From: Cytophagales bacterium
Lineage (GTDB): Bacteria > Bacteroidota > Bacteroidia > Cytophagales > Spirosomataceae
Assembly (NCBI GenBank): GCA_004292855.1
Contig: RDXN01000073.1
Location: 1 to 46,844, forward strand
Direction of reading: 5' to 3'
Length of the DNA: 46,844 nt
Position numbers and translations under genes: made by a program. Positions 36,408-46,623 of this stretch are shown one piece after another. How positions within the stretch are numbered: the first letter of the stretch is position 1; the number at the start of each line of letters is the position of its first letter. Under the pieces are notes generated by a model. The model saw only the letters and a list, made by a program, of their open reading frames with translations. It was not told where the DNA came from and did not search any database.

Positions 36408-36495
36408 TTAAAAAGAGTGAAAGAGACAAAGAGTGAAAGAGTGGTAAACCTTACGGTTGCTCTTTCACTCTTTATTTCTTTCACTCTTTATTTTA
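36408..36495. repeat. imperfect inverted repeat of GAGTGAAAGA units, probable terminator
   Basis: The left arm (about 36408-36441) holds two AAAGAGTGAAAGAG-like units; the right arm (about 36460-36495) holds two complementary units. The loop contains a small inner stem. The minus-strand stop codon of the actin-fold gene (36488-36490) lies inside the right arm. Position and strength suggest an end of transcription for the three-gene module. Confidence 0.85.
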
Positions 36496-37591
36496 ATGTA
36501 AGTAAATACCCAATCGTAAAGTTAGCATCCCAGTCGAAGACGAATTGTTGGCAGCCAGTGGCATCGGCGAGGGCTTTGTAGATCACGAGGCCTGCTTTCT
36601 GCTTGGCGTTTTCGCCGGTGTAATCGCCGGGGGCTTTCAGAACGGTGTAGCGTTCTTTGCCGTTACGCACCTGCTTGGCCAGTTCAAACGGGATACCGCC
36701 AATGATGAAGGCCGTTTTGCGGTTGGTAGCCGGAATCTGCTTCGCTTTGGCGGCTACGTCTTCGGCCACTTTGGCGTCTTCGATGCCGTTCTGGAAATAC
36801 TTGGAGCCGTAGGCTTCCAGAGCCTGCACCGACCCGCCGTTGCGCCACGAAATTTTGGTATTGCCCGATCCAATATCCACCACAAAGGCATTGTTGTCGA
36901 AGTCCGACGGTAGCACCGACCGCAGAGCCAACCGGCCTTCCTGCTCCGGTGTTACAGTGTTGACCACATAGTTGAGCGACTTCAGGGCGCGAATAATTTT
37001 CTGCGTCACCTCGGCTTTGGCCGCTCCTGAGCTAATCACGAACTGAATGTCGCGACCACCCACCCCATAATCGAGCATGTTGCCGATGTACTTCTTCAGG
37101 CCCTCGCGCACGTCCTGGTCGGTAGCCATGTTTTCGGTCACGAGGCTGTTGCCAAACTCGGCCTTCTCCAGTTTCCAGCGTTTTTGATCGTCGATGCGTA
37201 CAACGAACGAGTTAAACCCGCTTGCGCCTAGTTCAACAACACCTTTCAGCTTGCCATTGACTGGCTCCGGGGCCTTGTATGAAAACGCAGGCCGGGGGCC
37301 ACTGTCCGATGCCGCCGACGAACCTCCCGAACTGCCGCCGTTGTCGGAAGCTTCTGATGTGGCCTCCGAGGTGGCCTGTTCGTTAGCACCACCGGGCAAG
37401 GTGGGCGAGTCGGTGTTGTTGCCGGTGTCGTTGCCTTCCACGCCCGACGATGAGCCGGTTTGTTCGGCAGACTGTTTGCCCCGCATGTTGGCGAGCCATT
37501 CGTTGCCGCCGAGGGCTTTAAAACCGAAGTAAAGAGCGGCCAACACAATGGCCGTAATGAGGAGCCTACCGGCTACGGTTAATCGTTGCAT
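36488..37591 (-). CDS. membrane-anchored actin-fold (Ppx/GppA- or ParM-like) ATPase-domain protein
   Basis: The 367-aa product has an N-terminal helix (about 6-24), a long Ser/Gly/Asn/Glu linker (about 35-105), and an actin-like ATPase-fold domain (about 115-367). The phosphate-1 loop is ELGASGFNSF (120-129), the phosphate-2 loop is VDIGSGNTKIS (238-248), and an adenosine-like motif is FIIGGIPFE. This fold occurs in Ppx/GppA phosphatases, ParM and hexokinase-like proteins. The linker puts the domain on the far side of the membrane from a short N-terminus, but topology cannot be read. It is last of a tight three-gene set with two coiled-coil proteins. It is not one I recognise as a named protein. 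Confidence 0.8.
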   Translation of the reverse strand: MQRLTVAGRLLITAIVLAALYFGFKALGGNEWLANMRGKQSAEQTGSSSGVEGNDTGNNTDSPTLPGGANEQATSEATSEASDNGGSSGGSSAASDSGPRPAFSYKAPEPVNGKLKGVVELGASGFNSFVVRIDDQKRWKLEKAEFGNSLVTENMATDQDVREGLKKYIGNMLDYGVGGRDIQFVISSGAAKAEVTQKIIRALKSLNYVVNTVTPEQEGRLALRSVLPSDFDNNAFVVDIGSGNTKISWRNGGSVQALEAYGSKYFQNGIEDAKVAEDVAAKAKQIPATNRKTAFIIGGIPFELAKQVRNGKERYTVLKAPGDYTGENAKQKAGLVIYKALADATGCQQFVFDWDANFTIGYLLTLK

Positions 37592-37595
37592 GGTA

Positions 37596-38618
37596 TTATT
37601 CTAACAGGTTTTTATAGTTCTGATCCTTGGGTGCGTTCATCACGCGGGTGGTGGGCTGGGGTTCGGGGGCGTCGAGCTGGATGAGTTTGAAATCGCCGTG
37701 GTTGTAGGCTTCGAGCATCTGCTGACCCTTGTCTGACAACATACCGTTCTGAATATCAACCCCGTTAATGAAATCCATCGACAGGTCCATAGCCCGCTTC
37801 ATCTCGCCGAGCTTCTTGCTCATGTCGTCCTGGATGTACTCCATCGACTCGTCGAAATAGAATTTTTTGTCGGGATCGCCTTTGAAAATGCTGACCGCCG
37901 TTTTCAAGGCGTTTGAGCTTTCCTTCACAATCTGGTACTCAGTTTCCTTGAGCCGAACCTTGATTTCTGTCTCTTTAATGATGTACTCCGCGCTTTTGTT
38001 TACTTTTTCCATGAACGCCAGCACGGTTTTCATGTTCCGCTGGAGGGGCTGGAGTTTTTCGTTCATTTCCTGCAAACCCGCGCCTTCCATCGTGGCCAGA
38101 GTGGCGGCTTCTTTCATGCCGGGGCGGTCGGTCATTTGATTGGCCTTGTTGGCTTCGGCAAACTTCTGCCTGATCTCCTCGTTGTTCTCGTTGATCTTTT
38201 TGTTGAGCTTCACCAACTGCCCGGCCAACGTGTCGATCTGCCCACTCATTTTGGCACGCTTATCTTTCAGGTCATCGACGTAGATTTTCATGATCGCGAT
38301 GGGGTTCAGTTGAATGATCGTACCGGTCAGGCTGCGCATCATCGACTTGAACAGGAAAAACACACCCGTCCGAATATCCTTACTCGTGACCAAAAACACC
38401 ACCAGGGCCAGCACGGCCAATAGCGCACCCAGATAGAGCGTATTCTCCGTCACGCGGATAAGCCACGCCAGAATGTCGTTGAGTCGGTAGAGGAACGCGC
38501 CCCCTGCGGCCAGCATAAAAATCATACCCGCCACACCCTCGGGGCGGCTCCAGAACGACTTTTTGTCGGCCTCGGAGGTGGCGTTGCCGCCAAGTTGAGA
38601 GAAATCAGGAGTTGCCAT
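37596..38618 (-). CDS. two-helix membrane protein with long coiled coil, unknown function
   Basis: The 340-aa product has two membrane segments (about 29-50 and 60-78), then an amphipathic region (84-110). A long charged coiled-coil stretch of about 112-300 follows (DKRAKMSGQIDTLAGQLVKL, INENNEEIRQKFAEANKANQ). The final 40 residues are less ordered. The coiled coil resembles spacer helices in membrane-remodelling or stress proteins, without a clear match. The start is ATG 38618, preferred over the frame that opens at 38642. It is followed 4 nt later by the actin-fold gene, so the two are co-translated. Confidence 0.8.
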   Translation of the reverse strand: MATPDFSQLGGNATSEADKKSFWSRPEGVAGMIFMLAAGGAFLYRLNDILAWLIRVTENTLYLGALLAVLALVVFLVTSKDIRTGVFFLFKSMMRSLTGTIIQLNPIAIMKIYVDDLKDKRAKMSGQIDTLAGQLVKLNKKINENNEEIRQKFAEANKANQMTDRPGMKEAATLATMEGAGLQEMNEKLQPLQRNMKTVLAFMEKVNKSAEYIIKETEIKVRLKETEYQIVKESSNALKTAVSIFKGDPDKKFYFDESMEYIQDDMSKKLGEMKRAMDLSMDFINGVDIQNGMLSDKGQQMLEAYNHGDFKLIQLDAPEPQPTTRVMNAPKDQNYKNLLE

Positions 38619-38630
38619 AGATTTAATAAA

Positions 38631-38735
38631 GTCGAAAGTCAAAGGTCAAAAGTCTAAGGTCGGTTGGCGCGATTGAAACGCTGACGTGCAAGCAGTATGC
38701 ACGCGCCAGCCGACCTTTGACTTTTGACTTTCGAC
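38631..38735. repeat. imperfect inverted repeat of GTCAAAG units, 34-41 bp arms
   Basis: The left arm (38631-38671) and right arm (38702-38735) are complementary, except that the left arm has one extra 7-bp GTCAAAG-type unit. The minus-strand TGA (38736-38738) of the upstream gene abuts the right arm. It separates the first and second genes of the module and may set their relative expression. Confidence 0.85.
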
Positions 38736-39461
38736 TCATTTTAGATACGTTTGAATTTTTGAGACATCGGCTTTGATTTGCTCGGTGAAGTTGGCGTAGG
38801 TGGCCTCGAAGTTCTGACGGTTTTGGGTCAGTTTCGCGCTTTGTTCGGCCACTTCGCCCCCAATGTTAGCCAGCCGTTCGTTATTGGTAGTCTGGCGTTT
38901 CTGGAGTTCGGCTATTTGTTTGGCAATGGTCTCGTTGTCGGCTTCAAGCTTTTTCTGCTCGTTTTGCAGCCCCCCCACGCGCTCGTTCATAGCCGTTTCC
39001 ACGCTTTTCAAGAACAGGTCGCGGTCGGTGCCGAGGGCCGTGAGGTATTGATTGGCCGTGCTCGTGAGCAACTGCACGTTTACGCCCCCGGCAAGGGCTT
39101 TGAAACTAGCCCACGCGGCCTGAAATCGCTTGTCTTCGGGCAGGCCGAGGTCGGCGAGGTTGCGGAGTGTTTCGCGAAACTCGAAATAATCCGGCCCCTG
39201 AATGTTTGCCTTGCCTAGTACCTCGGCAAAGTGCTCGGCGAATTTCGCATCCACCGTGCCTTGCTGTATGGGCGGTCCGTCGTTACGGCCGGGCGATGGG
39301 GGCATGGAGGGCGCAGGCATCGCGGTTGGGCGCGGTGGCGCGGTACTCATGGGCGCACCCGATGCGCCTGCGGGTGGGGCGGATGCGCTGGGAGTTGGGG
39401 CTTCTTCTTTTACGAAAAAGCCCAGAATTTTCTGGCCAAGGCTCTGTTCGGGTTCTGGCAT
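38736..39461 (-). CDS. proline-rich protein with C-terminal coiled coil, unknown function
   Basis: The 241-aa product starts MPEPEQSLGQKILGFFVKEE, followed by a proline/alanine-rich low-complexity stretch (about 22-65). A short folded region comes next (KFAEHFAEVLGKANIQGPDY, then FRETLRNLADLGLPEDKRFQ). The C-terminal coiled coil spans about 160-241 (LQNEQKKLEADNETIAKQIA). No signal peptide or membrane helix is seen, so it is probably cytoplasmic. The coiled-coil tail is loosely like PspA-type proteins, but I would not assign it. It is the first gene of the module. Confidence 0.8.
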   Translation of the reverse strand: MPEPEQSLGQKILGFFVKEEAPTPSASAPPAGASGAPMSTAPPRPTAMPAPSMPPSPGRNDGPPIQQGTVDAKFAEHFAEVLGKANIQGPDYFEFRETLRNLADLGLPEDKRFQAAWASFKALAGGVNVQLLTSTANQYLTALGTDRDLFLKSVETAMNERVGGLQNEQKKLEADNETIAKQIAELQKRQTTNNERLANIGGEVAEQSAKLTQNRQNFEATYANFTEQIKADVSKIQTYLK

Positions 39462-39584
39462 AGCGGTCTTGTGGTTGATCGACAAAGCAATACTACGCGA
39501 TTTTACGAAAACATGCTGAATCCTTTCCTACAAACGGTCTGGGGGCCTGATGATTTGGCGCGGGTGTACAGGATTGGCGAACGC

Positions 39585-40730
39585 TCAATATAGATACAAG
39601 TGCTTCGGAAATTCGGGGGCACTGAGCCGCTCTCCAAACCAGCGCAAACAAGCTGCGCGGTTTGCCTCGTTGTGCGTACGCAGTCGTACGGCCCCGTATA
39701 ACTGCACGACGCCTGCGTCGGCTTTGGCGTACACGTCGGCCTCGGCCACGAGCGGACACGACTCTATGACCGCCCGAACGTGTGCCGGATACACGTTGAC
39801 TCCCGCAATCTGAACAGCCTCGTCGAAACGGCCCAGCACCCGTATCGTGCCGTTGAGTCGGTGTTCGATCCGGTCGGGGATGGCGTAAGTCTGCCCGGTG
39901 TTGGTGTGGGAAACGGTGGGCGGTTCGCCGGGTGATTGGCCGGGCTGTAGTTGCCAGTAGGGGAACAGCGTAAAATCGTGATCGGAGTGGTGTCGATAGG
40001 CGAGGCCGCCCGTCTCGGACGAGCCGTAGATTTCGGTGAGGGGCAGGCCCCGGTTGAGCAGGTGGATGAACAGGGCGGGAGGCATGGGGGCCGTTGAGCT
40101 GACGCCCCGGATGGGCAACCGCTCGCCCGGTGGCAGCGACTGGCTCAGATACTCCCACGTAAAGGGTGTGCCGATCAGGAGCGCGTTGGCCGGGAGGGTT
40201 GAACGTGTTGTGTCGGCAAGGAGTTGCAGGGGTTGTTGCCAGAGGGCGGGCAGCACAATCGTGTATAGAAACCCGTAGATATGGTGAGTCGGAACCATAC
40301 TGATAACTGGACCGGGAGGGCCGAGCAAACGGCCCAAAAAACGCCCCTCAGCCAGCAACGAGGCCATTGTGTGGGTAATGGCTTTGGCCTGCCCGCCCGT
40401 ACCCGACGTGCGGAAGGTGAGCGCGTTGTCGTTCTCGGCGCGGGCACGCAAAATACACTCAACCCAGTGATCGAGACCCGTTTGGGCCAGCAGGTAATTG
40501 GCTGCCGACGTTTGAAATATCCCAAAAAACTCGTTGATCAGGGCCGCCAATTCCATCCGTTGCAGGGAGTTAAGACCCAGGTCGTGGTAGAGATTGAGCG
40601 CAGGGGAGACGTTTGTTGGCAAGCCAGCGTGGGGTTGCCCCAGGATCCGGCCTGCCGCATCGAGCACAATGCACCGAACGTTGTCAGGCGTCCAAATCAT
40701 GGACTCCAACAGGTTACTGGTATTAGGCAT
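39585..40730 (-). CDS. pcl: adenylate-forming ligase, probable p-coumarate:CoA ligase for PYP
   Basis: The 381-aa product is an ANL-family (AMP-binding) enzyme. Residues 45-60 resemble an acyl-carrier-protein helix with LGLNSL (51-56), where D-S-L is usual. The P-loop is TSGTGGQAKAITH (108-120), the substrate/AMP motif is YGSSETGG (235-242), and the GRFDEAVQIAGVNVYP motif (300-315) has Gln where Lys is common. The protein ends before the usual C-terminal catalytic Lys segment. It overlaps the end of the PYP gene by 8 nt. In characterised PYP bacteria a pcl gene next to pyp activates p-coumarate for attachment to the cysteine, which is the basis of the call. The missing C-terminal Lys makes activity less certain. 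Confidence 0.75.
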   Translation of the reverse strand: MPNTSNLLESMIWTPDNVRCIVLDAAGRILGQPHAGLPTNVSPALNLYHDLGLNSLQRMELAALINEFFGIFQTSAANYLLAQTGLDHWVECILRARAENDNALTFRTSGTGGQAKAITHTMASLLAEGRFLGRLLGPPGPVISMVPTHHIYGFLYTIVLPALWQQPLQLLADTTRSTLPANALLIGTPFTWEYLSQSLPPGERLPIRGVSSTAPMPPALFIHLLNRGLPLTEIYGSSETGGLAYRHHSDHDFTLFPYWQLQPGQSPGEPPTVSHTNTGQTYAIPDRIEHRLNGTIRVLGRFDEAVQIAGVNVYPAHVRAVIESCPLVAEADVYAKADAGVVQLYGAVRLRTHNEANRAACLRWFGERLSAPEFPKHLYLY

Positions 40731-41127
40731 TGAAGTACTTGCGGTTTACCAGAAAATATTGATACGTACTGTCGGGCGATTTCAACAGCCGCAACCGGAC
40801 CCGTACGGGGTCGCACACATACGTCAGGATATAATCCAGTTCTTCGTCGAGATGAGGCCGGGCGTATTTGGCGGCAATCATCACGTTGTTGGCACAGGGG
40901 GCAATCTGCGTGAAATAGTATTTGCCCACCGCATAGGCGGGCGAGATGCCCGTAATGTGCGATTCGGACTTGCAATAGGCTTCGACAATACCATCGCGGG
41001 TCATTCGAACAACGCCAAATGAGGCATCATCGAGTTGTTCGTTCGACTGTTGTTCCAACCACTCAAGCAGGTTCGGGTCAGAGAACGCAATGGTTTGTTG
41101 CTTTGGAGGGTTAGTAGACTCAGTCAT
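40723..41127 (-). CDS. pyp: photoactive yellow protein
   Basis: The 134-aa product is a PAS-fold photoactive yellow protein, a blue-light receptor carrying p-coumarate as thioester. From memory of the Halorhodospira halophila sequence, Cys78 (IAPCAN) matches chromophore-binding Cys69. Tyr51, Glu55 and Thr59 match Tyr42, Glu46 and Thr50, which hydrogen-bond the chromophore. Arg52 is Ile61 here. Other conserved segments are QLDDASFGVVRMTRDGIVEA and YQYFLV. An N-terminal extension of about 10 residues is present. It is cytoplasmic, with no effector domain of its own, and lies 21 nt after the PAS kinase gene and overlaps the ligase gene, so it probably signals to neighbouring kinases. Confidence 0.92.
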   Translation of the reverse strand: MTESTNPPKQQTIAFSDPNLLEWLEQQSNEQLDDASFGVVRMTRDGIVEAYCKSESHITGISPAYAVGKYYFTQIAPCANNVMIAAKYARPHLDEELDYILTYVCDPVRVRLRLLKSPDSTYQYFLVNRKYFNA

Positions 41128-41148
41128 TGTTGCGCAAGTTTACGTACA

Positions 41149-42741
41149 TTAAATGGGTAAGTACACGAAAAATGTTGACCCCACCCCCGGCTGACTTGTG
41201 GCGGTGAGGAGGCCCCGGTGGTTTTCGGCTACCTTTCGGCAAATGGCCAACCCGACGCCCGTGCCGGGGTAGTTGGTCCGCCCGTGGAGTCGCTGAAATA
41301 CCTGAAAAATGCGGTCGAGGTACTTCTCGTCGAACCCAATGCCAGTATCGGCAATGCTGATCTGGTGAAACAGTTGGTCGGGCTTCAAGGGGCCGTCGTT
41401 GTATAGTTCCAAACCTGCAACCACCTGAGCGGGCAGTGTTTCGGTGGTTACCGTTTGGGCCAACACCCGAATCTGTGGGACATGGCCGGGTCGGCGGAAC
41501 TTGAGTGCGTTCGAAATCAGGTTTTGGAACAACTGCCGAAGTTGTCGCCGGTCTCCATCGAGTTCAAGCAACGCATCGACCGTTATCACCGCGCCCGATT
41601 CATTCGTCGGTGTGTACAAATCATCGAGCACTTCGGCAACTAAAACGTCGAGAGAGACGCGCTCAAACGGTTGCCGGTGGGTCGACAGGCGCGAGTAGTT
41701 CAGCAAGTCGCGAATCAGCATCGACATCCGTTGCGCCGAGGCCTGCATCCGACTAACCATGTCTTTACCAACCTCGTCCATGCCCAGCCCGTGTTCGCCC
41801 TGAAGCAGATCGCCGAACGACTGAATTTTGCGCAGGGGTTCCTGTAAGTCGTGGCTGGCTATGTAGGCAAATTGCTGGAGGTTGTCGTTGCTCCGGCGGA
41901 GTTCGAGGTTCGCCATTTCGAGGGCCTGATGCTGTCGTTTTTGGTCTAATTGGGCCTTGTGGGCTTCCGTAACGTCCATAAATGTCATCAGTACGCCATC
42001 GCCTACCCGGCTAAACTGAGCATTATACCAACCGTCGGGTCGTTCGGTGTAGTACGGAAATACCATACCCGCCGGGCGGCCTGTTTCGATTACATCGCGC
42101 AGGATGGTCTCCAATTCGGTTCCCTTAAACCGGGGAAACAAGCTAAACAACCCTTGACCAACCAGCGACTCCGACGAGTAGCCTGTGACGAGCGTGTTCA
42201 TCTGGTTGGTTATCCGATAGCGAAAATCAAGTATGGTTCGGGCAGGTGAATCGTCGCGAATGGCTTCCCACAGCACCAGACCGGCGGGGGTACTGTCGCT
42301 GATACTTTGGAGCAGTTCGGCCTGATAATGGTGGCTTAGCAGCGTCTGCTTGGTTTCGGTAATATCGGTCATAACCAGGATAACCTGCTCACCCTTAGGT
42401 GTAACTGACACCTGAAACCAGCCCGAACGACCAGCTACGGTAAAGGGCATCTCGAAGTCTTGCCGTTGATTCAGTTCCACACCAAGCAAACAGCGCGACA
42501 GCAGGCCCGACTCCCGCACGGGCGCGTAAATCTCACTCAACAACCTGCCTGTACATTCACTGGTGGCCCAGCAAATATTCTCTGTAAATACCTGGTTGGC
42601 ACGCACCACCCGAAAGTCGCTGATTGACCCGTTACGTGAGGGCCGAACGGCCTCAAGTACAGCAATGCTCACCGACACACCGTCCAGAACGCTTTGCACC
42701 AGATCCGACTCCTGATGGGTGTCCTTCATCTTGTTGTTCAT
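41149..42741 (-). CDS. PAS-domain sensor histidine kinase
   Basis: The 530-aa product has two PAS-like domains (about 14-130 and 145-260). A HisKA dimerisation domain follows with the phospho-acceptor His297 (ASHDLQEPLRK), then a HATPase domain with N-box NLISNALKF, G1 box IADTGIGF and G2 box GTGVGLAICRKVAE. There are no membrane helices, so it is soluble. Neither PAS has an obvious chromophore cysteine such as the NCRFLQ of LOV domains, so it is likely a signal acceptor rather than a photoreceptor. Its start overlaps the heme oxygenase stop (ATGA), and the PYP gene follows, making PYP its plausible partner. Confidence 0.92.
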   Translation of the reverse strand: MNNKMKDTHQESDLVQSVLDGVSVSIAVLEAVRPSRNGSISDFRVVRANQVFTENICWATSECTGRLLSEIYAPVRESGLLSRCLLGVELNQRQDFEMPFTVAGRSGWFQVSVTPKGEQVILVMTDITETKQTLLSHHYQAELLQSISDSTPAGLVLWEAIRDDSPARTILDFRYRITNQMNTLVTGYSSESLVGQGLFSLFPRFKGTELETILRDVIETGRPAGMVFPYYTERPDGWYNAQFSRVGDGVLMTFMDVTEAHKAQLDQKRQHQALEMANLELRRSNDNLQQFAYIASHDLQEPLRKIQSFGDLLQGEHGLGMDEVGKDMVSRMQASAQRMSMLIRDLLNYSRLSTHRQPFERVSLDVLVAEVLDDLYTPTNESGAVITVDALLELDGDRRQLRQLFQNLISNALKFRRPGHVPQIRVLAQTVTTETLPAQVVAGLELYNDGPLKPDQLFHQISIADTGIGFDEKYLDRIFQVFQRLHGRTNYPGTGVGLAICRKVAENHRGLLTATSQPGVGSTFFVYLPI

Positions 42742-43319
42742 GTATGACTCACCTGTTCTGTTGCCTGTTCAGACAGTTCCTCAAAAAAGGCAAAGGCACG
42801 GTCGGCTGCCCGGATAATCTCGTCGTCGTGTCCGTTGGCGTGGCTCACCAGATACGCGCAAAAGGCTTTCCAGTGAAGGCCGGTTTCTGCCCCATAGCCG
42901 GCAAAAAAGCGCGATTCCAGCCCCGTCAGAGCCGGTGTTTTACGCAACGCCCTGACAATAACCTGCCCGCCCAGCATAGACCCTTCGGCCACGTAGAGCG
43001 CGCCGAGCAGTTCGTAGCCCGTCCAGTTAACAAACAGGCTGGGCGAGCGGTCGGGCAGAGGCACCTGAACCTGGGCCAGGTCGGCCACGAGCCAGGGCGT
43101 TTTCCGGCGGGTCAGCCGGTCGTAGTCGGCAAAAAAGGTCGACTGATTAGCAATGGCCTGCTCCAGAGCGGAATGAAACCCGTAATGAATACCCAACAAC
43201 TGCTCATACTCGGCCCGACTGAGTGTTCCGGTCATGAGTTTATCGGCAAAGAGCAACGCTTCGGTGCGCTCATGGCGGGCACGCGTTTCGGTTTTCAGTC
43301 GGTGTAGCAGGTCGGTCAT
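42738..43319 (-). CDS. bphO: biliverdin-producing heme oxygenase (bacteriophytochrome-associated)
   Basis: The 193-aa product is a heme oxygenase. It has LKTETRARHERTE with the proximal heme-ligand His16 and the distal-helix segment YVAEGSMLGGQVIVRAL. It opens heme to biliverdin, the chromophore of the bacteriophytochrome encoded upstream, which is the typical bphO-bphP arrangement. ATG 43319 overlaps the response-regulator stop by 4 nt; the longer frame to 43337 starts only with TTG. No biliverdin reductase is needed, as bacteriophytochromes bind biliverdin directly. Confidence 0.93.
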   Translation of the reverse strand: MTDLLHRLKTETRARHERTEALLFADKLMTGTLSRAEYEQLLGIHYGFHSALEQAIANQSTFFADYDRLTRRKTPWLVADLAQVQVPLPDRSPSLFVNWTGYELLGALYVAEGSMLGGQVIVRALRKTPALTGLESRFFAGYGAETGLHWKAFCAYLVSHANGHDDEIIRAADRAFAFFEELSEQATEQVSHT

Positions 43320-43732
43320 AGCGATAAGGGCAACCAAAACTCAACCGCCCGACGCATCATACTTGTTACGTCGTGGTAACTGCCGGGTTTAATCAGATAC
43401 GCATTGGCACCGAGGTCGTAGGCCCGGCGAATGTCTTTCGGATTGTCGGAACTGCTGTACACCACCAAACTCAGGTACCGGGTGCGGCTCGTGGCCCGCA
43501 CTTGTTGAATCACGTCGAACCCGCTTTGGCCCGGCAGGTTCAGATCGACCAAAACAAGCCGGGGCAGGGGCGAGGTCGTGCCCAGATGACTGCCTTTCAA
43601 AAGTAGGTAGTCGATGGCCTCCGAACCCGAGGTCAGAATTGTAAAGGAGGGCGTTGGGTCCATTCGACTCATAACGCGCCTAAACACATCGGCCTCATCG
43701 GGATTGTCTTCAATGTAAAGAATGTCAATCAT
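43316..43732 (-). CDS. CheY/Rcp1-type single-domain response regulator
   Basis: The 138-aa product is a receiver domain alone: acidic pair Glu8-Asp9, phospho-acceptor Asp63 (LVDLNLPG), Ser92-Ser94, and Lys115 (YLIKPGS). The longer beta4-alpha4 region with RYLSLVVYSSS and the FW..L end resemble the phytochrome-associated Rcp1 type. No output domain is present, so it acts as a shuttle or a phosphate sink. It starts 6 nt after the bacteriophytochrome stop and overlaps bphO by 4 nt, so it is the natural partner of the phytochrome kinase. Confidence 0.95.
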   Translation of the reverse strand: MIDILYIEDNPDEADVFRRVMSRMDPTPSFTILTSGSEAIDYLLLKGSHLGTTSPLPRLVLVDLNLPGQSGFDVIQQVRATSRTRYLSLVVYSSSDNPKDIRRAYDLGANAYLIKPGSYHDVTSMMRRAVEFWLPLSL

Positions 43733-43738
43733 GGGTGC

Positions 43739-45979
43739 TCAGGATAGATGAGAAGGAAATGAGACGTAAAAGGTGGTAGACTGATGCGGGTTGCTTTCGA
43801 ACCAGACCTTGCCCCGGTGGCGACCCATAATGCGTTTTACGATGGCCAAACCCACGCCATACCCCTCGTAGGTCGTGGCCGAGTCGAGCCGTTGAAACAG
43901 TTCAAACACTTTACCGGCCTGCTTCATGTCGATGCCGATTCCGTTGTCGGTTACGGCGTAGATTACCTCGGTACCGTTGCCATGACCGTCAATCGTCACG
44001 CGTGCTTGTGGCACTGCCTGGGTGTATTTTACGGCATTAGCGAGTAGGTTGCTGAATACCTGCGACACCATCGACTGATCGCCGTACACGTCGGGCGTAT
44101 TACCCACCCGAATCGTAAGCTTACGCCCGATGGCATCGGCCAGCAACTCGTCGCGAAGCTGAATCAGAACGGGTTGCATCGATAGTCGTTCCATGTTGAC
44201 CTCGTTTCGGCTCGTGCGCGAATAGTCCATCAGGTTTCGGATCAGCAGACTCATTCGGTCGGTGGCTTTCACCACTTTGTCCAAAATAGGCAGAGCATCG
44301 TGGGGCAGGGTATGCCCGTAGTCTTCAAGGAAAATTTCGGTGTAGCTTTTGATCGACGACAGGGGCGAGCGCAAATCGTGAGAAACCGTGTAGCTAAAAG
44401 CCTCCAACTCCTCCTGAGCCAGCCGAAGTTGCTCGTTGAGAGCGCGAATCTGATTGGCCTTTTGGGCTACCAACTGCAATAGATCTTCGCGGAGCTTGAG
44501 CGTGGTGGCAACTTCCTCCTGCCGCCAGGGTAAGGCCCGGTTGCGCACTTCCTCGGTCCATTTATCAAAACTTTTGCGCGGACTTAGCCGCACCTCGCCC
44601 GTTTCGCTCATCTCAACGGGTTTTTCGGGGTTGCCTCCCCACGAGACTGAATGAATCTGTTCGGGCTTGAACCACAGCATAAACTCGTTCATCTCGCGCG
44701 ACAACACCACCATGAGCACCCCCGATGCTGTTTGGCGGAATAACTCTGCCGGATGGTAGAGATTAGGCAGTTGGTTGGTTTGAAATACCCGCTCCGTGGT
44801 GGTTGTTCTGAGCCAGTCGACGAGGGCCGTTATGTCGTCGGGTGTGGGGGTATTGCCCATCGTGTGCAGTTGCCCTTCAAATAGCAAAGCCGCCCCAGTT
44901 GCGGTTGTTATGTCGAGCAGCGTAGTCGAATGTTTGGTCAGACCCTGCGCAACGTCCCAATCGGTCAACATTTGCTCGTAAAGCGTTTGTTCATGCGCCA
45001 GTAGGCTGGCTTTGTACTGAGCCGTTTCGTCGCTCTCCCGAATCTCAATTGCCGACGACAATACCTGTGAAATCAACACCGCCGACTGCCGGGTTGTGTA
45101 GTCGATCTGGCGGGCATCTTCGTAATGATGGCATGCAATTAAGCCCCACAACTCGCCCCGATTCAGCAACGAAATACTCATACTGGCCCGCACACCCATA
45201 TTTTGCAAGTACTCGATATGCACCGGCGACACGGATCGTAACTGAGCATACGTTAGATTGAGGGGGCGATTATGTTGCGGATGGTTAACCGGAACAATCG
45301 CAACGCGTGGCTCCCGTACGTCGACAACGCTACGGACCAGATTGATTTTGTACAACTCGCGGGCCTGTTTCGGAATATCGGAAGCCGGGTAATGCATACC
45401 CAGAAAAGGGACCAGATGATCTTCACGGGCTTCGGCCACCACCTCCCCGTGCCAGTCGTCGCCGAACCGATAAACCATCACCCGGTCAAAACCCAAGAGT
45501 TGTTTAAGCGTGGGGGCAATGCGGGTCAGTAAATCGCTTAGGCTTGCACTGCGCTGAATGTCGCTCATGGTTTGCGACAACAAACTCTGCGTTGACAGTG
45601 CTTCCGAAGGCGCGTCGGTCTGAGCCGGTTCGAGTTCGACGATTAGTGCGTTATCGTGCTGATGAACTAGCAGCTGCCAGGTGTTGCCCTGAATATCAAC
45701 CCGGTACGGATTCAACAATTCCGGTTTCCCGCTTCGCAAGGCTACGGTCAGCACGTTGTGCAGAACCGAACCGGGCAAATCGCCAATGGTCAGCTCGTTT
45801 ATCGACCGACCAATCAGGGCGTTTGCGGATTGCCCCGTCAGGTTGCCGCAATTTTCGCTGACCTGCACAATGCTGAGCAATTGTACGTCAAGGGCGATTA
45901 AATATCCGTGCGATTGGATGTAGCCGGGCCATTGGATAGGTTCTCGCTCACAGTTGGTTAAATCGGGCGCGGGTTGCAT
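43739..45979 (-). CDS. bphP: bacteriophytochrome histidine kinase
   Basis: The 746-aa product has the PAS-GAF-PHY-HisKA-HATPase layout of bacteriophytochromes. Cys10 (DLTNCEREPIQ) is the biliverdin-binding cysteine, in an N-terminal PAS that goes on with PGYIQSHGYLIALD. The GAF core has PASDIPKQAR (198-207), with Asp201 as the conserved chromophore-binding Asp, and a following VDVREP. The PHY tongue motifs are WGG (447-449) and PRKSF (467-471). The kinase has His534 (SHDLRSPLSS), N-box NLLANAVKYT, G1 DNGIGI and G2 GYGVGLAIVKRI. It is a soluble red/far-red light-regulated kinase. It is first in the operon and its start is supported by the palindrome upstream. Confidence 0.96.
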   Translation of the reverse strand: MQPAPDLTNCEREPIQWPGYIQSHGYLIALDVQLLSIVQVSENCGNLTGQSANALIGRSINELTIGDLPGSVLHNVLTVALRSGKPELLNPYRVDIQGNTWQLLVHQHDNALIVELEPAQTDAPSEALSTQSLLSQTMSDIQRSASLSDLLTRIAPTLKQLLGFDRVMVYRFGDDWHGEVVAEAREDHLVPFLGMHYPASDIPKQARELYKINLVRSVVDVREPRVAIVPVNHPQHNRPLNLTYAQLRSVSPVHIEYLQNMGVRASMSISLLNRGELWGLIACHHYEDARQIDYTTRQSAVLISQVLSSAIEIRESDETAQYKASLLAHEQTLYEQMLTDWDVAQGLTKHSTTLLDITTATGAALLFEGQLHTMGNTPTPDDITALVDWLRTTTTERVFQTNQLPNLYHPAELFRQTASGVLMVVLSREMNEFMLWFKPEQIHSVSWGGNPEKPVEMSETGEVRLSPRKSFDKWTEEVRNRALPWRQEEVATTLKLREDLLQLVAQKANQIRALNEQLRLAQEELEAFSYTVSHDLRSPLSSIKSYTEIFLEDYGHTLPHDALPILDKVVKATDRMSLLIRNLMDYSRTSRNEVNMERLSMQPVLIQLRDELLADAIGRKLTIRVGNTPDVYGDQSMVSQVFSNLLANAVKYTQAVPQARVTIDGHGNGTEVIYAVTDNGIGIDMKQAGKVFELFQRLDSATTYEGYGVGLAIVKRIMGRHRGKVWFESNPHQSTTFYVSFPSHLS

Positions 45980-45998: not shown

Positions 45999-46043
45999 AT
46001 GCTTAAATAGCGATTTAGTTTACCAATTGAACTATTTAAGCAT
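45999..46043. promoter_or_regulatory. 12-bp-arm palindrome upstream of bphP, candidate operator
   Basis: ATGCTTAAATAG (45999-46010) and CTATTTAAGCAT (46032-46043) are perfectly complementary, with a 21-bp centre. The element ends 20 bp before the bphP ATG (minus strand), inside the likely leader. It may bind a dimeric regulator or form an mRNA hairpin controlling the whole light-sensing operon. Confidence 0.6.
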
Positions 46044-46245: not shown

Positions 46246-46623
46246 TCAGTCCCGGACGGCAATGGCCTCAATTTCGATCAAGAAGCCATAGTGTAATTCC
46301 TTGACGGGTACGACCGAACGAGCGGGCCGGTGCTCGCCGAACACCTCGGCATACATTGTATTGACAGCCGGCCAAAGGGCAACATCGGTGACGAAGACGG
46401 TGGTTTTCAATACACGGTCAAGACCACTGCCCGATGCGTTCAGAATGGCTTCCACATTAGCAAGAGCCTGCCGGGTTTGAGCTTCGATGTCGCCCGTTAC
46501 GTGTTCGCCGTTTGGTCGAACGGGGAGTTGCCCGGCCACAAAAACAAGCCGGTCCCAGGCAACGGCCTGGGCATAATGCCCGGCAGGTTGGGGAGCGTTG
46601 GGGGTGGTGATAGCGTCGATCAT
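46246..46623 (-). CDS. RidA-family enamine/imine deaminase
   Basis: The 125-aa product is a RidA (YjgF/YER057c/UK114) protein, which hydrolyses reactive 2-aminoacrylate and other imines and enamines. It has GHYAQAVAWDRLVFVAGQLP, the TGDIEAQTRQALANVEAIL helix, and the catalytic Arg102 (RPARSVVPV). The length is normal and no signal peptide is present. It lies downstream of the molybdopterin oxidoreductase end and its terminator, on the same strand, and is probably an independent transcript. Confidence 0.93.
   Translation of the reverse strand: MIDAITTPNAPQPAGHYAQAVAWDRLVFVAGQLPVRPNGEHVTGDIEAQTRQALANVEAILNASGSGLDRVLKTTVFVTDVALWPAVNTMYAEVFGEHRPARSVVPVKELHYGFLIEIEAIAVRD

Follow-up and report, generated by a model that had tools for sequence, protein, structure and literature searches.

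How could one bacterial operon couple a red/far-red receptor and a blue receptor that are not fused into one polypeptide? The question is raised by a 46,844-nt stretch of DNA from a Cytophagales bacterium (assembly GCA_004292855.1, contig RDXN01000073.1), which is referred to as the window. Open reading frame (ORF) and sequence analysis of the window revealed a unit of six genes on the minus strand (39585-45979), which are listed here in transcription order.

43739-45979, minus strand: bphP, bacteriophytochrome histidine kinase of 746 aa with the domains PAS-GAF-PHY-HisKA-HATPase
43316-43732, minus strand: receiver, a single-domain, Rcp1-like protein of 138 aa in which no output domain was found
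42738-43319, minus strand: bphO, heme oxygenase of 193 aa for biliverdin supply, ATG start
41149-42741, minus strand: PAS-kinase, a PAS-PAS-HisKA-HATPase histidine kinase of 530 aa
40723-41127, minus strand: pyp, divergent photoactive yellow protein (PYP) of 134 aa
39585-40730, minus strand: pcl, p-coumarate-ligase-like ANL enzyme of 381 aa whose N-terminal domain resembles a carrier protein (Ser55) and which has no GK motif at the C-terminus

The ORF and domain scans agreed with the original prediction on the six minus-strand genes and their identities, and the gaps and overlaps given there were all exact on re-measurement. Successive junctions consist of a 6-nt gap, two 4-nt ATGA overlaps, a 21-nt gap and an 8-nt overlap. 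The mechanically called bphO ORF opens at a TTG codon (43337), and the ATG was taken as the start. The six genes are probably read as one transcript.

From the sequence we propose, at slightly better than even odds, that BphP and the PAS-kinase signal in parallel to one receiver and that PYP is a detachable blue-light subunit of the PAS-kinase. BphP, with biliverdin from BphO, would be switched by red and far-red light and would phosphorylate the Rcp1-like receiver of the same unit. The blue sensor would be PYP with p-coumarate on Cys78; because it is a lone domain, it would act by docking, in this case onto the adjacent PAS-PAS histidine kinase after a light-induced structural change. Such docking would be the non-covalent equivalent of the reported PAS-PAS-HisKA-HATPase-PYP fusions. 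With the PAS-kinase and BphP both feeding the co-encoded receiver, its phosphorylation would report red/far-red as well as blue light. Since the receiver has no output domain, it would have to act on a protein encoded elsewhere to produce a physiological output.

Conservation of the unit in Spirosomaceae

The pyp gene was found in 16 of 222 Spirosomaceae genomes (20 genes), and the window together with 17 related stretches gave 18 pyp loci. A PAS-kinase of the window kind was present in 17 of these; in 15 it directly precedes pyp on the same strand. pcl accompanied pyp in 16 loci; it was absent from two loci of genome G196 (L034 and L035) and frame-broken in L022. In six loci bphP and the receiver preceded PAS-kinase-pyp on the same strand, namely in the window and in L026 (G190), L028 (G208), L029 (G213), L031 (Spirosoma fluviale, G187) and L034 (G196). 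The bphP gene of L029 is frame-broken and the kinase region of L034 is split over two ORFs. Like the window, these five relatives hold both receptors in one unit, with the order bphP-receiver-PAS-kinase-pyp-pcl, or the same without pcl in L034. They differ from it in having no bphO in the unit and longer kinases (up to 1060 aa) that fall inside the pyp-type kinase clade, and in an extra 136-aa ORF in L029. No locus other than the window was found to contain all six genes, and of the six joint loci it alone has bphO in the unit; a bphO match was present somewhere in each of the 16 pyp genomes. The original prediction had described unfused red/far-red and blue receptors, two kinases and one receiver in a single compact unit; the gene content agrees with this, and the comparison of gene order across relatives bears it out.

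Two unrelated light loci could also have become neighbours by chance, and the frequency of bphP, which occurs in 121 of the 222 genomes, speaks for such encounters. This is nonetheless very improbable, because PYP is confined to 16 genomes, yet bphP-receiver precedes PAS-kinase-pyp in a third of the 18 loci, in the same order and strand and in at least two kinase lineages (approximately unbiased (AU) test, p 1.2e-7). The kinase tree test also speaks against one recent transfer as the source of the six joint loci.

The bphP genes were compared over 21 loci, comprising all ten at ∼60-66% identity to the window (clade A) and 11 from the large set at ∼50% or below (clade B); a further fragment in G159, which ends at a contig edge, is not counted. 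Both clades were starred groups in a tree of 20 bphP loci; L139, which is in four pieces, was omitted from the tree and placed in clade B by identity. Clade A consists of the six joint loci and of four loci from Fibrella aquatilis (G112, L123), Fibrella rubiginis (G114, L124), G110 (L122) and G196 (L125), which carry the first four genes in the window order, bphP-receiver-bphO-PAS-kinase, with no pyp-pcl behind the kinase. A PAS-kinase lies downstream on the same strand in all ten clade-A loci. In clade B (L126-L135 and L139) 10 of 11 loci have the order bphP-receiver-bphO, L134 being without either partner, and a codirectional PAS-kinase was present in none of the 11 loci fetched. The PAS-kinase is therefore the common neighbour of both receptors, as it accompanies 17 of the 18 pyp loci and all ten clade-A bphP genes.

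A less probable but serious alternative is that the transcript carries two light systems with separate circuits, BphP signalling to the co-encoded receiver and PYP with the PAS-kinase to a receiver elsewhere. Among the 12 pyp loci without bphP, stand-alone receivers were found beside kinase-pyp only in L035, where they are ∼33% identical and flank the pair on either side, and in L037 a receiver domain forms part of one kinase. In the remaining ten no receiver adjoins the unit, so that their PAS-kinase must use a distant one. The clade-B operons, with bphP, receiver and bphO and no codirectional PAS-kinase, point in the same direction. On the other side stand the ten of ten clade-A bphP-receiver pairs with their same-strand PAS-kinase, which in the four pyp-free clade-A loci is also what the window kinase matches best in the whole genome.

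Outside the family, 27 of 395 genomes in a sample of the phylum matched the PYP model, many of them weakly and within long proteins. No phytochrome was found near pyp in 12 loci examined, which came from 10 of the 11 genomes matching at 94 bits or above; G368 and 14 genomes with weaker PAS-like matches lay outside this set. A blastp search of the set with the window BphP (E 1e-4) returned a single match, to the kinase region (L146). In five proteobacterial plasmid loci, a pyp or PYP-like gene is accompanied by a ligase gene and by GGDEF or EAL genes, and no phytochrome is listed for them in the PLSDB annotation, which is incomplete.

The PAS-kinase and the history of the unit

The PAS-kinase contains two PAS_4 stretches followed by HisKA and HATPase (Pfam), with the boxes SHDLQEP at 296, NLISNALK at 407, DTGIGF at 465 and GTGVGLA at 493. 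Kinases of this kind are numerous, with 15 matches in the source genome (G000) and 32 in G196 at E 1e-40, and a whole-genome control was made in 11 other genomes. In G196, G110, G112 and G114 the window kinase matched the bph-operon kinase best, whereas in G159, G201, G184, G187, G190 and G208 its best match came from the pyp or joint operon; the sole exception was G157, which is without pyp and where another kinase matched best. In the source genome itself a second similar kinase (45% identity) is present on contig C47, and no adjoining light gene was recognised there by eye.

In both kinase trees the 16 other pyp-linked kinases formed a starred clade, and the window kinase, which is a long branch, fell outside it. 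Grouping the six joint kinases in one clade was rejected by the AU test given above. The candidate of one joint operon within a single kinase lineage, for which bphP, kinase, pyp and pcl trees were tried, was dropped on the same p value. Joining the window kinase to the 16 pyp-type kinases was not rejected (AU p 0.097, and 0.252 after 10 background kinases had been added), nor was joining it to the four bph-type kinases (AU p 0.208). In the first tree it was grouped with two bph-operon kinases (86/91), which is not claimed here as the grouping dissolved with the addition of the background kinases. The pyp and pcl trees gave mostly little resolution. The union of receptors in the window and that in Spirosoma do not belong to one kinase lineage, and two unions, or one larger ancestral operon with differing losses, both fit.

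Phytochrome, receiver and heme oxygenase

All five Pfam domains of BphP (PAS_2, GAF, PHY, HisKA and HATPase) scored over their cut-offs. The protein matched full-length phytochromes in the PDB (E 2.3e-136) and reached 319 bits against the NCBIfam equivalog NF041576, below its cut-off of 1040. It was aligned with a solved phytochrome. Its N-terminal biliverdin cysteine is Cys10, the DIP motif lies in PASDIP at 198, the conserved histidine in SPVH at 251 and the PRxSF tongue in PRKSF at 467; WGG is found at 447 and the kinase histidine in SHDLR at 533. By these features the bphP product is a canonical bacteriophytochrome kinase, for which bound biliverdin and red/far-red photoconversion are predicted. 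The receiver matched PF00072 (Response_reg) with 47 bits and contains VDLNLPG at 62, a kept SSS and IKPG at 114. Its best PDB match was RcpB, with RcpA, Rcp1 and RphyB within the best 11, which makes it a stand-alone receiver closest to phytochrome regulators, of the Rcp1 type.

The bphO product matched PF01126 (Heme_oxygenase) with 63.2 bits (cut-off 23) and the structures of pa-HO and HemO in the PDB. It is encoded within the bphP unit, as expected for a BphO, and can credibly supply biliverdin. Elsewhere in the source genome (L138 9884-10492, contig C96) lies another heme-oxygenase-like gene, which shares 33% identity with bphO. Among the relatives, G196 has three pyp and three bphP matches, and in G213 the clade-A (L029) and clade-B (L139) bphP genes are both frame-broken, which may be due to assembly errors.

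PYP and chromophore supply

The pyp product had no Pfam match and scored 67 bits (E 1.6e-18) against TIGR02373 photo_yellow, under the curated cut-off of 143. Two proteobacterial PYPs pass this cut-off, and the products of L031 (66.5 bits) and of L148, a further Bacteroidota PYP (123.5 bits), do not; the window protein was therefore treated as a member of a divergent PYP clade and not as an equivalog. It matched PYP chains in the PDB (E 4.8e-13). In alignment A1, which contains 19 Spirosomaceae rows and a Halorhodospira halophila row and excludes the G159 PYP, Tyr51, Glu55, Thr59 and Cys78 correspond to Tyr42, Glu46, Thr50 and Cys69 and are invariant. The PDB alignment agreed on the equivalents of Cys69, Tyr42 and Glu46. 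Bound p-coumarate and a blue-light photocycle are predicted for the window PYP. Six PYPs with Thr at the position of Thr59 have a mean band at 445 nm (PMC12826048), and a band near this wavelength would be expected here.

Elsewhere, pyp occurs as a tandem pair within a single locus in L023 (G111) and L024 (G113). In many relatives an ORF of 135-139 aa, weakly similar to PAS, sits between pyp and pcl and overlaps both by a few bases (L021 10369-10788, L023 9372-9779, L029 9588-9998 and others); it is absent from the window, L026, L028 and L031. The 136-aa ORF was considered as a second PYP and not accepted, since hhalign against the PYP alignment gave a probability of 9% and E 0.0036 over 24 columns, and the only other matches were to PAS_8 under its cut-off.

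The pcl product matched AMP-binding (37.9 bits, cut-off 29.9) and reached 210 bits against the 4-coumarate-CoA ligase model TIGR02372 (profile positions 46-371 of 386), under the cut-off of 334.7, which was passed by one of the five proteobacterial homologues tested. Its N-terminus matched the PP-binding family PF00550 (22.6 bits, cut-off 20.8). This match was over the cut-off in four of five other Spirosomaceae ligases tested, with L037 short at 19.2 bits, and in none of the five proteobacterial ligases. The carrier domain was thus not accepted as a family-wide Pfam feature, although neither Gly52 nor Ser55 varies among 15 Spirosomaceae ligases (alignment A3) and both align in all eight rows of alignment A4, the five proteobacterial ones included. 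An AlphaFold2 model of pcl was built from 15 rows (predicted local distance difference test score 85.7, predicted template modelling score 0.77). It shows helices at 15-30, 33-36, 55-69, 79-82 and 86-99, with Ser55 opening helix 55-69, a layout that we take to be that of a carrier protein. The body is of the ANL type, with 4gs5 as the best Foldseek match (E 4.3e-18).

The C-terminal lysine of ANL enzymes has a role in adenylation. It is present in the five proteobacterial rows of A4, and its motif is absent from all 15 Spirosomaceae rows of A3, which end earlier. Ligase activity of pcl was not assumed, because this motif is missing. Inspection by eye of the other frames downstream of the window pcl found one GK pair ∼20 codons on, without the surrounding motif, and a frame break is unlikely as the end is common to 15 genes. 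No match to PF00221, the tyrosine ammonia-lyase-type family, was found in the source genome, which is 96.5% complete. PF00221 was absent from 14 of the 16 pyp genomes and matched in two, as well as in five of 14 controls. Allowing for the incomplete assembly, p-coumarate would then be taken up or made otherwise. The statement of the original prediction that both chromophore-supply genes are present is too strong; it holds for bphO, and pcl would only activate p-coumarate, its product ending before the lysine motif. The flexirubin 4-coumarate-CoA ligase described in PMC3992019 is a different ligase from the window pcl.

These features also bear on a reading in which the PAS-kinase belongs to the phytochrome operon only and pyp-pcl is a recent passenger, its PYP being unloaded or a chromophore-free, protein-binding PAS domain. 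The position of the window kinase outside the starred clade, the missing lyase and the missing lysine motif all fit such a passenger. We consider it improbable, as the pocket residues Tyr, Glu, Thr and Cys do not vary, the union of the window kinase with the 16 others was not rejected by either AU test, and pcl is kept beside pyp in 16 of 18 loci even though most pyp genomes are without PF00221. A tentative scenario, which we hold to be possible but doubtful, is that separate phytochromes and PYPs were wired together more than once in Spirosomaceae with the PAS-PAS kinase as hub: pyp-pcl would have been added behind bphP-receiver-bphO-kinase in the window, and bphP-receiver placed before kinase-pyp-pcl in Spirosoma. 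PYP would be loaded by the carrier-bearing, lysine-less ligase, the chromophore perhaps travelling as a protein-bound thioester and not as free CoA ester.

Several observations weigh against the two-input model with docked PYP. Twelve of the 18 pyp loci lack bphP, and G159, from the same genus, has PAS-kinase-pyp-pcl without bphP on a 6.3-kb contig. The PAS-kinase is convergent to pcl-pyp in L030 and L032, and L037 has two other kinases in its place. The bphP tree is undecided on uniting the window with the five other PYP-linked bphP genes (AU p 0.486), and a union with the four bphO-linked ones gave AU p 0.526, with a constrained tree that scored 0.53 log units above the free tree. The absence of a PF00221 lyase and of the lysine motif makes the chromophore supply of the window PYP uncertain. 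Scans for promoters (one promoter-like site) and terminators (seven terminator-like sites, of which four fall within genes of the unit, on their coding strand) yielded no more than shuffled sequence did, and neither support nor deny a single transcript.

Comparison with known systems

PYP, a biliverdin phytochrome and a kinase are joined in one signalling unit in Ppr of Rhodospirillum (Rhodocista) centenum and in Ppd, as they are in the window, and signalling of this kind is itself already known. According to PMC9664959 (2022 survey) a heme oxygenase is always in the neighbourhood of the Ppr/Ppd genes, and Ppr of Rhodocista centenaria is reported to bind CheW (PMC2993699). Unlike Ppr, in which the three parts share one polypeptide, the window encodes separate proteins on separate ORFs, has a second kinase, a receiver and pcl, and carries PYP unfused near the 3' end of the unit. 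The comparison with Ppr in the original prediction was apt as an idea; the anatomy is not that of a split Ppr, and consists of bphP-receiver-(bphO)-PAS-kinase with pyp-pcl behind. The operon may work like Ppr without being a member of that group.

The RtBphP1 operon of Ramlibacter tataouinensis, a non-photosynthetic host, has a similar gene set of heme oxygenase, phytochrome, CheY-type receiver and extra kinase; the passages of PMC6848086 on it name no PYP or ligase, and the extra kinase is an atypical hybrid. Dohmen et al. (2025; PMC12826048) surveyed 113 pyp operons, reported none with a phytochrome, and described PAS-PAS-HisKA-HATPase-PYP fusion proteins. There, HisKA/HATPase genes favour the upstream side of pyp and pCL the downstream side (34 of 42), an arrangement shared by the window. 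Salinibacter is given as the main Bacteroidota source of clade B of the 2022 survey. Signal transfer by single-domain PYPs is called "unknown" there, and an important gap in PMC12826048. No bphP-pyp operon in Spirosomaceae was found in the titles, abstract starts and passages of the open-access literature searched; subscription papers were outside this scope, and the result is not proof of absence.

The recurrent operon type described here is unlisted by the 2025 survey, and runs counter to the statement that phytochromes are not encoded in pyp operons. It forms an unfused counterpart to Ppr, in which integration would be achieved by operon rather than by fusion. The PAS-PAS histidine kinase, which accompanies pyp in 17 of the 18 loci, is a candidate signalling partner for single-domain PYP, and the presence of a receiver and a second photoreceptor in the window unit makes PYP-to-kinase signalling and two-colour integration testable with purified proteins. 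Given a ligase that is truncated and carrier-fused, one may ask how the window PYP obtains its chromophore, and this unusual enzyme and the possible repeated assembly add to the interest of the operon.

Genomic setting

The source genome comprises 6.25 Mb in 108 contigs, and its family also contains Spirosoma and Fibrella. In GC content (0.557) the unit does not differ from the remainder of the window. The unit was taken to span 39585-45979 and to end at pcl, since a tblastn search (1e-4) of the 17 related pyp stretches found none of three flanking genes (ridA upstream at 46246-46623, and two downstream at 38736-39485 and 37596-38642). Three codirectional genes follow downstream (36488-39485), with no Pfam match over cut-off and one weak Ppx/GppA match; the two of them that were tested were not found beside pcl in relatives. 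One further feature lies upstream of bphP:

45999-46043, no strand assigned: inverted repeat of two perfect 12-bp arms around a 21-nt spacer, lying 20-64 nt ahead of the bphP start

Arms of at least 12 occurred in four of 2000 first-order Markov resamplings of the 266-nt bphP upstream region, and the repeat is a possible operator or leader hairpin. It was not shared with nine related upstream regions, and an operator upstream of bphP was not upheld.

The original prediction had called the host non-phototrophic. No PF00124 reaction-centre match was found in the source genome, and PF01036 (rhodopsin) was matched once over cut-off, with 145.5 bits, on contig C2 (L163 1099-1866 and 2060-2995, with the neighbouring ORF). 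The term is therefore unsafe, and "no photosynthetic reaction centre found" is the better wording. The rhodopsin stretch IDWTLTVPLMCVEF presumably resembles proton-pumping rhodopsins, and we take the adjoining ORF to resemble Blh-type retinal enzymes.

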